Shown here piece after piece: positions 11,721 through 25,263 of a stretch of 38,069 bases of DNA. The position numbers were made by a program, and so were the translations under genes. The stretch is from Pseudomonadota bacterium (GTDB lineage Bacteria > Tectomicrobia > Entotheonellia > Entotheonellales > Entotheonellaceae). The stretch lies in NCBI GenBank assembly GCA_005777235.1, contig SXND01000041.1, positions 1-38,069 on the forward strand. The letters are read 5' to 3'. The notes under the pieces are model-generated. The model saw only the letters and a program-made list of their open reading frames with translations. It was not told where the DNA came from and ran no database searches. The first letter of the stretch is position 1. The number at the start of each line of letters is the position of its first letter.

Positions 11721-12218
11721 ATGCAACGACACCGTCAGGCATCACAAGGGTTTACGCTGGTGGAACTTCTGGTTGCCACCGCAGTCATAGGGATCATTGC
11801 TGCCATGGCAGGGCCTAACTTCAAAGCTTGGTCGCGCACCTATCAACTCAAAAATGCTACCACAGCGCTCTATGGCCATATGCAAAACGCCAGAATGGGG
11901 GCCATTAAGGACAACAGGCCCTGGGCGGTCAATTTTAATCCCGGCGGGCTGGAGGGCTACGAAGTCCGTAATAGCCTTGGGAGGGTGACGAGACGGGTAG
12001 ATTTCAATACCCAATACGGAGCCTCAGTCCGTTTTCAGCATCCACAGGCTGCACCTCCCGTGGATCGCGGCACGATCGTTTTCAGGCCCAATGGTTCGAG
12101 TGATGCTGGATTTGCCTATCTCGCGGCGCGAGATAGTACGCGCTATTATCGTGTCGGGTTAGCCTTGGCAAATGGGAATACCAGAATCCAAAAATGGGTC
12201 TCTTCGTCATGGCAATAA
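11721..12218 (+). CDS. Type IV minor pilin, GspH/FimU family
   Basis: A 165-aa prepilin. The leader MQRHRQASQG is followed by the class III cleavage site G10/F11 and the conserved FTLVELLVATAVIGIIAAMA helix with Glu at +5. The body matches the GspH/FimT fold (region near LYGHMQNARMGAIKDNRPW). AGAGGAG precedes the ATG at 11721. Minor pilins of this type prime pilus assembly together with PilV, PilW, PilX and PilY1, all encoded next in order. Its stop overlaps the start of pilW. The domain could equally be named GspH; the operon context favours FimU. Confidence 0.88.
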   Translation: MQRHRQASQGFTLVELLVATAVIGIIAAMAGPNFKAWSRTYQLKNATTALYGHMQNARMGAIKDNRPWAVNFNPGGLEGYEVRNSLGRVTRRVDFNTQYGASVRFQHPQAAPPVDRGTIVFRPNGSSDAGFAYLAARDSTRYYRVGLALANGNTRIQKWVSSSWQ

Positions 12219-12979
12219 ACATATACACATGCAGGGCAGTCCTGCGGCACCAAGCAGGCGTCAGTCTCGTCGAGTTGTTACTCTATATCACCATCTCTTC
12301 CGCTCTTATGGCCAGCATGTACCAGATATTCAGCTCACAAGAGCATAGCTATATGACGCAGAATGAGGTGATGGAAATCCAGCAAAGCGCGCGTGCAGCG
12401 ATGACGGTGCTCACCAGGGATATCCGTGCTGCGGGCTACAAGTCTCCCCTCTCGAAGGCTCGCGTAGGCTTCGTCGCTTCTTTGCCGGCTCCGAATAATA
12501 ACTTCACCATTAATTACGCGCTCCAGAACGATATGATTGCCATGCAGAACGATACAGATGGCGACAGCACGGTCGCACCAAACACTGCCGAACAAATTGC
12601 CTACCGCTTTGACGCCCCGACTGGGACGCTGCAACGGTTTGTGCCGGCGACTACCGTGCCGGGCGGGACATGGGAGGTGGTGATCGACCACGTGGATGCC
12701 CTGCGTTTTGTGTATCTGGATGTGAATGGAGTCATCACGACGCTGCCCCAAAACATTCGCTCCGTCGAAGTTTCCCTGCTGGTGCGGTCGCGCCGACCAG
12801 ACGCCAAGGTGAAAAATACCGAGATATACAGAAATGCACGAGGCACGGACCTCTGTCCTGCCTGTCGTACCGGTGCCAACGTGCATTTTTATCGGCGTCT
12901 GTTGACCACCATAGTGCAGGCCCGGAACTGCGCCTATACCGGTATTGAGGGGTTGTGCAATGCTGCGAATCCAATCTGA
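12209..12979 (+). CDS. pilW: Type IV minor pilin PilW
   Basis: A 256-aa prepilin with leader ending AG before VSLVELLLYITISSALMAS (Glu at +5), then the PilW-type body (QSARAAMTVLTRDIRAAGY). The ATG at 12209 overlaps the end of the preceding pilin gene by 10 nt; an in-frame ATG at 12194 is possible, and neither has a strong ribosome site, so translational coupling is likely. It ends in TGA at 12977-12979, inside the start of pilV. The processed protein sits in the inner membrane and pilus tip complex. Confidence 0.85.
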   Translation: MAINIYTCRAVLRHQAGVSLVELLLYITISSALMASMYQIFSSQEHSYMTQNEVMEIQQSARAAMTVLTRDIRAAGYKSPLSKARVGFVASLPAPNNNFTINYALQNDMIAMQNDTDGDSTVAPNTAEQIAYRFDAPTGTLQRFVPATTVPGGTWEVVIDHVDALRFVYLDVNGVITTLPQNIRSVEVSLLVRSRRPDAKVKNTEIYRNARGTDLCPACRTGANVHFYRRLLTTIVQARNCAYTGIEGLCNAANPI

Positions 12980-21899: not shown

Positions 21900-23477
21900 T
21901 CACCCGTGATGCTGCAAGAGATGCCCTGGGCGGACACCGGTAGAGCGGCCGGCCGTAATGACGGGCTGTCCATTGACGAACACATGCGTCATCCCTTCAG
22001 GATACTGCCGGGGGTCTTCGTAGCTCGAACGCTCACGGATCGTCTCGGGGTGAAACACGACCACGTCTGCAGCGTTGCCCTGCTGCAAGACGCCACGATC
22101 GGTGAGATGGAGAATCTCCGCCGGCAGACTGGTCATCTTACGGATGGCCTCCTCCAGTGTGAACAAGCCGAGATCGCGCGCATAGTGGCCCAGAATGCGT
22201 GGACAACTCCCGTAGGCGCGCGGATGCGGCCGACCGCCGAGCAGGCCGTCGGTGCCCATGGCACGCCAGGGTGCCTGCAAAATGTGCTGGATGTCGTCTT
22301 CGCCAATCATGAACGTAATCATCCCGACCGCGAAATTCTCCTCCAGTAACAGACGGATCACCACGTCAAACGGTTCCATGTGCCACTCGCGCGCAATGTC
22401 GGCAATCCGTGCGCCCTCGACGCCGCGATGACGATCGGAGCCGGTGTATGAGACCATAATGTTGTCATAGCCCGCCTCCAACACCATATTGCGTGCCCCA
22501 GGGATGCCGTGCTCCATATCGGTCTTCATCTGCGCCAGGGCGACAGAATCGCGTAACCGGCTGCGCAGTTGGTCGATGCCCCCAGCGTGGGCCCACGTGG
22601 GCAGGAGCGCCGACAGCATCGTACTCCCCGCTTCGTAGGGATACTGGTCGGCGGTGATCTTCAGCCCGGAGGCACGGCCGGCATCAATACGCTGAATCAG
22701 GCGTTGCGCTTGACCCCAGTTGTTGCGCCCAGAGATTTTTAAGTGGGAGATGTGCAAATGCGCATCGGAGGCGCGGGCAATGTCGAACACCTCATCGAGC
22801 GCCGACCAGATGTAGTCGGCTTCATTACGCATGTGCGTGACGAACAGACCACCGTGCTTGGCGACAATACGGTTGAGGTAGATCAACTCCCGGATGTCGG
22901 CATATACACAGGGCGGGTAGATCAGGCCCGTCGACAGACCAAAGGCGCCCATATGTAAGGACTGTGCGAGCAGCAGACCCATGCGGTGGATCTCGTCATC
23001 CGTGGCCGGGCGGTCGTCCATACCCATGACACAGAGGCGCAGGTTGCCATGGCCAACCAGCGTGGCGATGTTTACACTGGCGTGCGGCAGACGATGCAGA
23101 TATTGCTCGGCATCCTGCCAATCCCAGTCAATGGGGGGATTGCAGTCGAGCCCGGAGAGCTGCGTGCGCCAGGTGGTCGTAGCCTCAGGCACCATAGGAA
23201 AAGTGCCCATACCATCTTGGCCAAAGAGCTCGGTGGTGATGCCCTGAGCCGCCTTCATAGGGAGATCGGGCTCGGTAAAGACTACGAGTTGCGAATGTGT
23301 GTGCATGTCAATAAAACCGGGGCACACGATCATGTCCTGGGCGTCGATGACTGCCCCCACGGGCGGCAGATGCGGTGCCACGTCGGCAATGCGTCCATCG
23401 CGGATGAGGACATCCGCGGCAAAGCGCGCCGCCCCGGTGCCGTCAATCACGGTGCCATGTTGAATGGTGTAGTCCAT
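21900..23477 (-). CDS. N-acyl-D-amino-acid deacylase (D-aminoacylase) family amidohydrolase
   Basis: A 525-aa metal-dependent amidohydrolase. It opens with the family start MDYTIQHGTVIDGTG; the metal site shows HTH in GFIDMHTHSQ, later histidines THMRNE and HISHLKISG, and an Asp in MGTDGLLGG. D-aminoacylases remove acyl groups from N-acyl-D-amino acids; some relatives are dihydropyrimidinase- or dipeptidase-like, so substrate is provisional. The ATG at 23477 has GGGAG 8 nt upstream and is 14 nt after the stop of the AhpD-like gene. It is last in the minus-strand operon that begins with the aldo/keto reductase. Confidence 0.88.
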   Translation of the reverse strand: MDYTIQHGTVIDGTGAARFAADVLIRDGRIADVAPHLPPVGAVIDAQDMIVCPGFIDMHTHSQLVVFTEPDLPMKAAQGITTELFGQDGMGTFPMVPEATTTWRTQLSGLDCNPPIDWDWQDAEQYLHRLPHASVNIATLVGHGNLRLCVMGMDDRPATDDEIHRMGLLLAQSLHMGAFGLSTGLIYPPCVYADIRELIYLNRIVAKHGGLFVTHMRNEADYIWSALDEVFDIARASDAHLHISHLKISGRNNWGQAQRLIQRIDAGRASGLKITADQYPYEAGSTMLSALLPTWAHAGGIDQLRSRLRDSVALAQMKTDMEHGIPGARNMVLEAGYDNIMVSYTGSDRHRGVEGARIADIAREWHMEPFDVVIRLLLEENFAVGMITFMIGEDDIQHILQAPWRAMGTDGLLGGRPHPRAYGSCPRILGHYARDLGLFTLEEAIRKMTSLPAEILHLTDRGVLQQGNAADVVVFHPETIRERSSYEDPRQYPEGMTHVFVNGQPVITAGRSTGVRPGHLLQHHG

Positions 23478-23491
23478 GACGCATTCTCCCT

Positions 23492-23779
23492 TCACGAACC
23501 CTGGTGCTTCAGGGCCTCACGTTTGAGTTGGGCTTTGGCACGGAGGTGGAGGGATTGCACGATCCCCGCATCCACCGCGGCAATGACATCGACGGCGCAA
23601 TCGAGATCGTCCTCAGTAATGCCGGCCTTCCTTGCGTCCGCAAGGCGGCGTTCGACTCAGGGTTGGCAGTTACGCACCAGGGCGACGGCCAGGCCCATAA
23701 AGATTTTCTCGCGCTCGCTCAGATTGGGGCTGGCGTGGGCCTCACGGTACAACTGCCGGAAATCAGCCCGCTCGCTCAT
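23492..23779 (-). CDS. Candidate selenoprotein: AhpD/CMD-like protein with CxxU motif
   Basis: A 95-aa reading frame has one in-frame UGA at codon 41 (23657-23659) and ends at TGA 23492-23494. It starts MSERADFRQLYREAHASPNL with AAGGAG 6 nt before the ATG at 23779. The centre reads VALVRNCQP-UGA-VERRLADARKAGIT, followed by a typical CMD helix (DDLDCAVDVIAAVDAG). The AhpD/CMD redox motif is CxxC, and UGA is exactly at the second Cys (C38xxU41); the His four residues later is Arg45. A 6-bp hairpin with loop GGAC (23630-23645) begins its loop 18 nt after the UGA. The frame is open on both sides and has no restart codon right after UGA. Selenocysteine insertion is my preferred reading; a TGC-to-TGA mutation (pseudogene) or sequence error is the alternative. 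AhpD-like selenoproteins are, as I recall, reported from marine metagenomes. It sits 14 nt before the D-aminoacylase gene. Confidence 0.7.
23630..23645 (-). other. SECIS-like hairpin after the AhpD-like UGA
   Basis: In the mRNA, CCUUGC (23645-23640), loop GGAC, GCAAGG (23635-23630): a perfect 6-bp stem. Its loop starts after 17 nt from the UGA, and its first two loop bases are G. A lower GCC/GGC pairing across a small internal loop may extend it. This meets the general bacterial SECIS criteria as I know them (UGA-to-loop distance about 16-37 nt, G in the first loop positions). GC-rich DNA makes chance hairpins fairly common. Confidence 0.55.
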
Positions 23780-23793
23780 GTACTGCTCCTTAT

Positions 23794-24243
23794 TCATTCG
23801 TTACATTTGGGCACCGTGGGCATCAGGGGCAGTGCCTGCTGCTCGGCCTCCGTACAAGCATGGGTGGCACAGTAGTGCGGAATCGGCGTATGCGCGACGA
23901 CCACCGGTCGCCAGATAATGCCTCAGGTTCTGGCCTCCAGCTCATACTGGCGGCCAGTCACCATCTCGAGGGCAAACGGATCATTGTGCTGCCCGGCATG
24001 CGCCGTACTACTCCCAGCATAGACAAAACGGAAGTGGTGCGCCCCAGGGGCAACGTCGAGGACAGAGAGACGCGCCCGGGGGTCTAGTGCCTGGGTATCA
24101 ATGCCGACCAGGCGGATGGCATCCGGTAACACGAGGCGGGCATACGGCTGGGCGCCGCTTGGTTGCTCCGGCAGCGCTATACAGCTTAGCAACCCGCACA
24201 CGCTGCCGAGGAGCACCCCACACCATCGCCTTAGGCTTTGCAT
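23794..24243 (-). CDS. Small lipoprotein with in-frame UGA (conventional stop 23923)
   Basis: The N-terminus (MQSLRRWCGVLLGSVCGLLSC) is a lipoprotein signal with lipobox LLSC at Cys21. The body is beta-rich (YARLVLPDAIRLVGIDTQ, VAPGAHHFRFVYAG, GRQYELEART), like small PEGA/DUF2846-type lipoproteins. UGA at 23923-23925 would end it at 106 aa. The same frame stays open for 42 more codons (GIIWRPVVVAH.., with Cys in HYCATHACTE and PKCNE) to TGA 23794-23796. The longer form gives a 14-nt gap to the next gene, matching the 15 and 14 nt gaps elsewhere in this operon; the short form leaves 143 nt. Either UGA replaced a sense codon such as UGG by mutation, or it is recoded. Confidence 0.5.
23896..23912 (-). 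other. Hairpin after the lipoprotein UGA
   Basis: In the mRNA, GGCGACC (23912-23906), loop GGU, GGUCGUC (23902-23896): 7 pairs including one G-U. The loop starts 18 nt after the UGA at 23923-23925, the same distance as in the AhpD-like gene. It could be SECIS-like, or coincidental in GC-rich coding DNA. Confidence 0.35.
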
Positions 24244-24258: not shown

Positions 24259-25263
24259 CTAGGCTGCGGTAAACTGCGCCCAGATACTATTTAACTGTTG
24301 TAACGCCCCGTCTGGCAACGCGCCACGCGCCTCGGCGGTAATCGCCTGCTCCAGATGTTCCAGACTCGAACAGCCGACCAGTGCCGTCGACAAATTGCCT
24401 TTATTCCAGGCAAAGCGCAGGCCCGCCTCCACCAGGGAACTAGCATAGCCGTTCTGCACCAGGAACGCCAAGGCGCGCGCGCGTTCCACATCGGTGCGGT
24501 ACGCTGGCCCCGAACCAATCGGCGCCACACTGGGGACAGCAATAGGATGCCGCGTTTCTTCACCAGAGAGCGCCCCAGCTGCCAAGAGGCGAATACCAAT
24601 CGAGCCCATGCCGTGCGCCGTGGCTTGATCAATCAGCAACTGATAGTTTTGGCTCGGAAACCCCGCGGGCACCGGATGCCCGGCGCTGGGATTGAGCAGG
24701 TTGTAGCACACCTGCACCGTGTGGAACAACGTCGAAGCCATGACCTCCTGCACCGCCGTGGTGTCTCCCAGGCCGGTGATACCGTAGAAGCGCACTTTGC
24801 TGTCCGCTTGCAGCTGCCGAAACGCCGTGACCACCTCTTCGAGCACCTCTGCAGTGGTCAACGCCGCTGCCGTTTCTGGACCCGGCGTACGGCGCGGCAC
24901 AATGTGGTTGTGGAGCTGAATCACATCCACCTGCTCCATCCCGAGGCGCTGGAGACTCGCCTCCACTGAGCGCTGCACGGCGCCACGGATGTCCCCAAAC
25001 TCCTCAGGACGCAGACGCACTTTGGTGCCGACATACACCGCAGGTTTTAACTCACGCAGCACCTGACCGAGATGCTCCTCGGACTGGCCATCGCCATACA
25101 TCGACGCCGTGTCAAAGTAATTGATCCCCGCCTCTACCGCCCGTGCCACGGCGCGCACGCGTGTGCGCGGGTCAGCGCGGATCAGCAGACCGCCGACGGT
25201 GCCACAGCCAAAACCCAGGACCGAGACGCGTAGACCCGTTTTGCCAAGGGTACGATATTGCAT
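24259..25263 (-). CDS. Aldo/keto reductase
   Basis: A 334-aa NADPH-dependent reductase of the AKR superfamily. The catalytic tetrad is visible: D51 and Y56 (INYFDTASMYGDGQSEEHLG), K81 (VYVGTKV) and H118 (VIQLHNH). The N-terminus MQYRTLGKTGLRVSVLGFG is typical. GAGGAGG precedes the ATG at 25263. It is first in the operon with the lipoprotein, AhpD-like and D-aminoacylase genes (gaps 15, 14 and 14 nt). It should reduce carbonyls; substrate unknown. Confidence 0.88.
   Translation of the reverse strand: MQYRTLGKTGLRVSVLGFGCGTVGGLLIRADPRTRVRAVARAVEAGINYFDTASMYGDGQSEEHLGQVLRELKPAVYVGTKVRLRPEEFGDIRGAVQRSVEASLQRLGMEQVDVIQLHNHIVPRRTPGPETAAALTTAEVLEEVVTAFRQLQADSKVRFYGITGLGDTTAVQEVMASTLFHTVQVCYNLLNPSAGHPVPAGFPSQNYQLLIDQATAHGMGSIGIRLLAAGALSGEETRHPIAVPSVAPIGSGPAYRTDVERARALAFLVQNGYASSLVEAGLRFAWNKGNLSTALVGCSSLEHLEQAITAEARGALPDGALQQLNSIWAQFTAA

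Follow-up and report, generated by a model that had tools for sequence, protein, structure and literature searches.

CMD-type proteins with a CxxU motif, in which selenocysteine (Sec) stands at the second Cys, are described selenoproteins. They appear as a CMD domain-containing protein in PMC1088965, as AhpD-like 2 (pfam02627) in PMC2398784 and also in PMC9312934, and a 2026 review (PMC13188914), whose table lists 119 selenoprotein families, has a CMD-type row, MBW1767730.1. The premise of the initial annotation of the DNA studied here, that Sec replaces a redox Cys in AhpD-like proteins, thus has published precedents. The small CMD gene that we analyzed, located in a stretch of 38,069 nucleotides (the window), adds a member to this known group. 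It resembles the published CMD-like selenoproteins, the likeness being judged from these features, by the same domain (PF02627), a predicted Sec at the second Cys and a bSECIS; it differs from them in that the hairpin of its subgroup is unusually constant across three labelled lineages.

Membership of the CMD superfamily is clear (35.6 bits for Pfam PF02627, cut-off 23), while no NCBIfam model takes the window CMD protein above its cut-off. The top-scoring models, NF041537, MduS (NF045649) and TIGR04169 (arsenosugar-associated peroxidase-like), give 31.8, 32.6 and 38 bits, far under their respective cut-offs of 510, 380 and 120. NF041537 describes a fused arsenite methyltransferase/AhpD, whereas the window protein is stand-alone, with 95 residues and no adjoining methyltransferase gene. 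The GSU3128 family (NF041047), a distant AhpD homologue, is also small, CMD-like and of the CxxU type, but the window protein, with 25.7 bits where the cut-off is 110, is not a member.

The predicted fold of the CMD protein is all-helical, and this helical fold and the position of the CxxC are shared by AhpD of M. tuberculosis, RclX (7y4r) and O27018 of M. thermoautotrophicum (3bey). Foldseek matches to solved AhpD-like structures are nevertheless weak (best E 1.2e-3), 3bey being the closest solved fold. In AhpD-type proteins the proton relay includes a His at the fourth position past the second Cys. Both 3bey and 7y4r carry this His; the window protein has Arg45 in its place, so the relay is not conserved. 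The scores for the AhpD core domain (TIGR00778, 21.1 against 27.8 bits; the Cys homologue P0010 reaches 27.9) and for AhpD proper (TIGR00777, 14.7 against 191.95 bits) are below the cut-offs. On these scores and on Arg45, the window CMD is not AhpD proper.

Two adjacent genes of the window, the CMD gene and a gene for a predicted lipoprotein 14 nt upstream, are each interrupted by one in-frame UGA (Table 1). From the comparisons given below we consider it very likely that both codons, 41 in the first and 107 in the second, are read as Sec. For the CMD gene this reading is strongly supported by homologous sequences. The initial annotation had placed the CMD gene among co-oriented genes; the neighbours do lie on the same strand, but the upstream one, which it treated as an ordinary neighbour and not as a candidate, is the second candidate. 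This lipoprotein, probably a new selenoprotein family, is the main gain over the initial annotation.

Table 1. Position of the features of the locus in the window
Feature	Position	Strand	Remarks
Aldo/keto reductase gene, first of four	24259..25263	(-)	PF00248, 136.5 bits
Predicted lipoprotein gene, second predicted selenoprotein	23794..24243	(-)	149 codons + TGA stop
Codon 107 (UGA) of the lipoprotein gene, predicted Sec	23923..23925	(-)	Cys in 28 of 115 homologues
bSECIS-like hairpin UGGCGACC-GGU-GGUCGUCG	23895..23913	(-)	8 bp contiguous, 6 Watson-Crick
CMD/AhpD-family gene, predicted selenoprotein CQPU	23492..23779	(-)	95 codons + TGA stop
UGA codon 41 of the CMD gene, predicted selenocysteine	23657..23659 (23659-23657 as read)	(-)	Second Cys position of CxxC
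bSECIS-like hairpin CCUUGC-GGAC-GCAAGG	23630..23645	(-)	Loop begins at nt 18 after the UGA
Amidohydrolase gene, last of four	21900..23477	(-)	PF07969, 102.5 bits; probable start 23477

The CMD reading frame and its in-frame UGA

All the features of the 95-codon frame with UGA41 in a CxxC motif, as initially annotated, were found; the strand, left unstated, is the minus strand, and the plus strand of 23492-23779 yields a translation unrelated to the CMD protein. The minus-strand translation starts MSERADFRQLYREAHASPNLSEREKIFMGLAVALVRNCQPUVERRLADARKAG..., where the motif around the UGA is C38-Q-P-U41, and contains no further internal stop. The announced ribosome site is also there, a Shine-Dalgarno-like AAGGAG ahead of the ATG at 23779. 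Another in-frame ATG at 23797 is a possible start, less well placed.

A scan of one genome per species gave 23 related loci, spread over 22 genomes, whose records are labelled Binatia, Nitrospinota and Deltaproteobacteria. The identical codon is TGA in 22 of the 23 loci (21 genomes). The remaining locus (L041) is family-like at the first residues only, then diverges, and the codon is unreadable. Since the same TGA occurs at 22 further loci in 21 genomes, a base-call error is unlikely as a general explanation. In all five pairwise comparisons the nonsynonymous proportion is well under the synonymous one, before as well as after the UGA, a substitution pattern indicating that the frame is still under selection downstream of the UGA.

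These results bear on the reading of both genes as pseudogenes, or as products of sequencing errors, with premature stops. The contig does come from a draft genome of 284 contigs, and two consecutive interrupted genes would fit a decaying locus. But the CMD break falls on one and the same codon in 22 of the 23 loci, and the lipoprotein break on one and the same residue in 79 of 115 clusters, the substitutions past the CMD UGA are constrained, and neither frame has another internal stop. We regard this reading as extremely improbable for the pair of genes, and for the CMD gene we rejected it on the recurrence of TGA at the same codon. Two UGA-containing CMD copies (L024 and L029) lie about 21 kb apart on one chromosome, OX638375.1.

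Among the 22 protein-database matches that bear on codon 41, read as the database translations, Cys is found in 7, in line with the Cys-bearing homologues that the initial annotation looked to, beside the TGA of the 22 loci. Seven others stop exactly one residue ahead of the codon-41 position and three start one residue past it. The last five have Trp (P0003, P0004, P0006 and P0017, one of them odd and frameshifted-looking) or Arg (P0005, from Candidatus Entotheonella palauensis, the nearest named related protein). Trp and Arg records, here or at the lipoprotein UGA, could correspond to a real loss of Sec or to a TGA translated under another table.

Such records, in which codon 41 of the CMD protein corresponds to Trp or Arg and residue 107 of the lipoprotein to Arg, would also suit a general or local change of the code by which UGA is read as Trp, Arg or Cys. 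This seems very unlikely, because the source genome has SelB and a tRNA-Sec with anticodon tca and a bSECIS-type hairpin follows each UGA. As the initial annotation had stated, moreover, UGA is an ordinary stop in other genes of the window: it terminates 4 of the 23 long ORFs picked there, all four Pfam-matched, plus the CMD and lipoprotein genes themselves. General reassignment was rejected on this ground.

The search for CMD relatives near the source genome gave matches in 9 of 60 genomes, namely its own and 8 others whose matches are distant, with 26-34% identity and without an internal stop; the four other genomes of the same phylum gave no close relative. The only matches in 395 genomes of another phylum were in G065 and G068, both already among the known relatives, and the viral contigs searched contained none.

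Hairpins downstream of the UGA codons

In bacterial Sec decoding, SelB with Sec-tRNA(Sec) binds a hairpin and decodes the UGA. The model given in PMC13188914 sets for the bSECIS a loop of 3-9 nt with a G within the first two, a stem of 4-16 bp, a spacing of 16-37 nt and an MFE of at most -7.5 kcal/mol. The CMD hairpin, which is present as initially annotated (6 bp, loop GGAC, 18 nt from the UGA), falls within these published ranges, with 17 nt between and -13.5 kcal/mol over 26 nt. Its counterpart in the lipoprotein gene has a GGU loop from nt 18 after the UGA, again with 17 nt between, and -10.5 kcal/mol over 26 nt; judged on one sequence, it fits the same ranges.

Hairpins are nevertheless common enough that the CMD one, by itself, is weak evidence. 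A comparably spaced stem of at least 6 bp, whose loop has a G among its first two nucleotides, follows 37 of the 997 TGA triplets of the window, that of the CMD gene included. The stem length of the lipoprotein hairpin is equalled by 6 of the 997, its own included. The 76 nt that surround the CMD UGA fold no more stably than their shuffles (z = -0.45) and into a different minimum-energy structure; being unremarkable, fold stability was discarded as evidence. What raises the CMD hairpin above chance is its conservation among relatives.

This conservation was analyzed on 23 sequences, the window and the 22 TGA-bearing relatives, across which the hairpin is almost letter-for-letter constant. Pairing of the stem is kept in all 23 (138 of 138 cells for the six pairs). 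At one pair, seven sequences have G-C for U-A, both changes being synonymous, and slid controls have no both-sided change. The number of pairs with a both-sided change, one, is not above that of shuffles (484 of 500 reach 1), and the seven G-C sequences, near-identical, may represent a single event. Codon usage was tested on the 16 CUU-form sequences, the other seven being too alike: of the six hairpin positions with an invariant amino acid, five always use the same codon, whereas outside the hairpin this holds for 1 of 28 (Fisher p = 1.3e-4). CTT, GCA and AGG, three of the codons that are frozen or almost so, are uncommon in these loci, where they account for 15, 9 and 7% of their amino acid respectively. 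The CMD subgroup thus carries an unusually clean bSECIS, useful for studies of SelB recognition.

The upstream lipoprotein gene

In the list of open reading frames the lipoprotein has 106 codons, from 24243 to the TGA at 23925-23923. The frame is open for 42 more codons, without another internal stop, to a TGA just ahead of the ribosome site of the CMD gene.

A first search gave 11 homologues, and a second one with their alignment gave 115 (protein clusters), from the 7997 candidates sharing most words. Exactly at residue 106 end 79 of the 115; those that continue have Cys (28 of 115) or Arg (4 of 115: P0077, P0090, P0114 and P0136) at residue 107, and the other 4 are uninformative (two end elsewhere, one has an unrelated tail and one a gap). 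The 79 short forms, known as protein records, probably end in TGA and not in TAA or TAG. On a tree of 110 sequences, built from the part before codon 107 with six poor rows excluded, and with few columns and about half of the inner branches unresolved, the stop, Cys and Arg classes cluster (3 changes, against 29 in shuffles).

Several features of the Cys forms persist in the window protein beyond the UGA, namely G-I-x-W-R-P, three Cys and a P-x-C at the end. Its mean identity with the 32 relatives that read on is 55% over residues 108-149 and 48% over residues 22-106. The motif of the candidate family is [RK]-T-U-G-I-x-W-R-P, followed by C-x4-C in the tail and by a terminal P-x-C, and the conserved Cys besides position 107 are 125, 130 and 147.

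It might be argued that the CMD gene alone encodes a selenoprotein and that the lipoprotein ends at residue 106, the following 42 codons being the relic of a longer Cys form. The 79 database records that end at this residue would agree with this, 106 residues make a complete-looking small lipoprotein, and its hairpin is known from the window sequence alone. But decay is expected of a relic, and here the tail retains its motifs and is even better conserved than the part before the stop; the position of the stop is also constant in 79 diverged clusters. We therefore hold the relic tail to be unlikely, and prefer a lipoprotein of 149 residues with Sec at position 107.

The AlphaFold2 model of this protein (pLDDT 83.8 on average, with a drop over the final 20 residues) has an N-terminal helix, residues 2-19, and is mainly beta afterwards. 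One strand ends with residue 107 and the one after it spans 110-120, followed by the Cys-rich tail; if the UGA were not read through, the predicted sheet would lose strand 110-120. In the LLSC sequence Cys21 is invariant across 51 aligned sequences. This Cys after LLS, together with helix 2-19, predicts that the protein is exported and lipidated.

Described families seem not to account for the lipoprotein. The window protein is matched by no model of Pfam (E <= 1) or NCBIfam (E <= 10). Three models, the PA0061/PA0062 lipoprotein NF052250, DUF2057 and WYL, are faintly matched (E 0.061, 0.064 and 0.035), each by 2 of 14 lipoprotein relatives, and not by the window lipoprotein. A sequence search of solved structures returned nothing at E <= 1 and Foldseek against the PDB nothing at E <= 0.001, the fold matches being weak and mixed. 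The lipoprotein gene was matched in 26 genomes by the window's own copy only and in viral contigs not at all; relatives were found neither in 95 nor in 18 genomes, sets that partly overlap the earlier one and were searched without a positive control.

The PMC13188914 table of 119 selenoprotein families names no lipoprotein, and the word lipoprotein is absent from the main text of that review and of PMC12013277. In one open-licence library, papers on selenoproteins together with lipoproteins were, by title, on human health and neurobiology; absence there is not proof of novelty. We find it likely that the lipoprotein is the first member of a hitherto undescribed selenoprotein family, exported and anchored by lipid, and that it is encoded in a two-selenoprotein operon with the CMD protein. 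If so, 79 of 115 homologous lipoprotein clusters would lack about 40 residues from a selenocysteine codon onward, the short database lipoproteins arising from a UGA taken as stop, and bacterial selenium use would, with this family, reach the cell envelope.

Selenocysteine machinery and gene neighbourhood

The four sel genes that the initial annotation proposed to look for, selA, selB, selC and selD, were all found in the source genome, selA only as a fragment. selB (377.7 bits) and selD (357.4 bits) are above their cut-offs, the latter having its own in-frame TGA in a CAGU motif, and the tRNA-Sec (77.6 bits) is identified by ARAGORN as tRNA-SeC with anticodon tca. The selA match covers the last third of the gene at a contig end (169.2 bits, below the cut-off) and ends 23 nt ahead of the selB match. 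The sel genes sit on contigs other than that of the window, in a draft of 284 contigs that is 89.7% complete with 6.72% contamination; they and the window are likely from the same organism.

For the 21 genomes with TGA-bearing CMD relatives, selB is above the cut-off in 18 and not in 3; for tRNA-Sec, 19 have a match that scores 73 bits or higher, the other 2 being without a strong one. One of the 21, G068, has neither selB above the cut-off nor a strong tRNA-Sec. The gathering score of the tRNA-Sec model is not a safe line, because a tRNA-Leu of the source genome passes it.

The sel genes, the TGA shared by 22 of the 23 loci, the homologues with Cys and the bSECIS all agree with the initial proposal that the CMD gene encodes a selenoprotein rather than a pseudogene, and none of them speaks against it. 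We propose that SelB would bind the hairpin after each of the two UGAs, whose loop starts at nt 18 downstream, and would deliver Sec-tRNA(Sec) at both instead of termination. With selenium so incorporated, the CMD protein would work in the cytoplasm as a redox enzyme of the CxxU thiol/selenol type; the lipoprotein, predicted to be an exported, lipid-anchored beta-sandwich, would carry Sec and three conserved Cys outside the cytoplasmic membrane.

For lineages of this kind the open-licence library searched has little on selenoproteins: none of its papers names selenoprotein together with Binatia or Tectomicrobia, and Entotheonella and selenocysteine occur together in three. A paper on Entotheonella symbionts, PMC12858407, reports a putative RiPP operon with SelA and SelB homologues.

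The two genes stand in a row of four on one strand, in the order aldo/keto reductase, lipoprotein, CMD and amidohydrolase. The last presumably is N-acyl-D-amino-acid deacylase-like. The gaps are of 14-15 nt (15 nt between the aldo/keto reductase and lipoprotein genes, 14 nt between the CMD and amidohydrolase genes), a spacing which suggests that the four genes are co-transcribed. Rfam has no match in the window. A third selenoprotein in the window was considered for the PilW-like gene at 12194-12979, where 84 codons are open past the TGA, and rejected; these codons are probably the following gene out of frame.

Neighbours differ among the CMD-related loci (11 loci and 20 ORFs examined) and, their conservation being only partial, we draw no pathway or function for the CMD gene from them. 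An amidohydrolase match recurs in L032 and L037, and PEMT/ICMT is found downstream of the CMD gene in L034 and L035. In 4 of the 11 loci (L025, L032, L037 and L039) the CMD gene is preceded by a SAM methyltransferase gene, about 1 kb away in L039. At least three of these four methyltransferases are His-rich at the N-terminus, and the arrangement recalls the fused methyltransferase/AhpD selenoproteins of NCBIfam.
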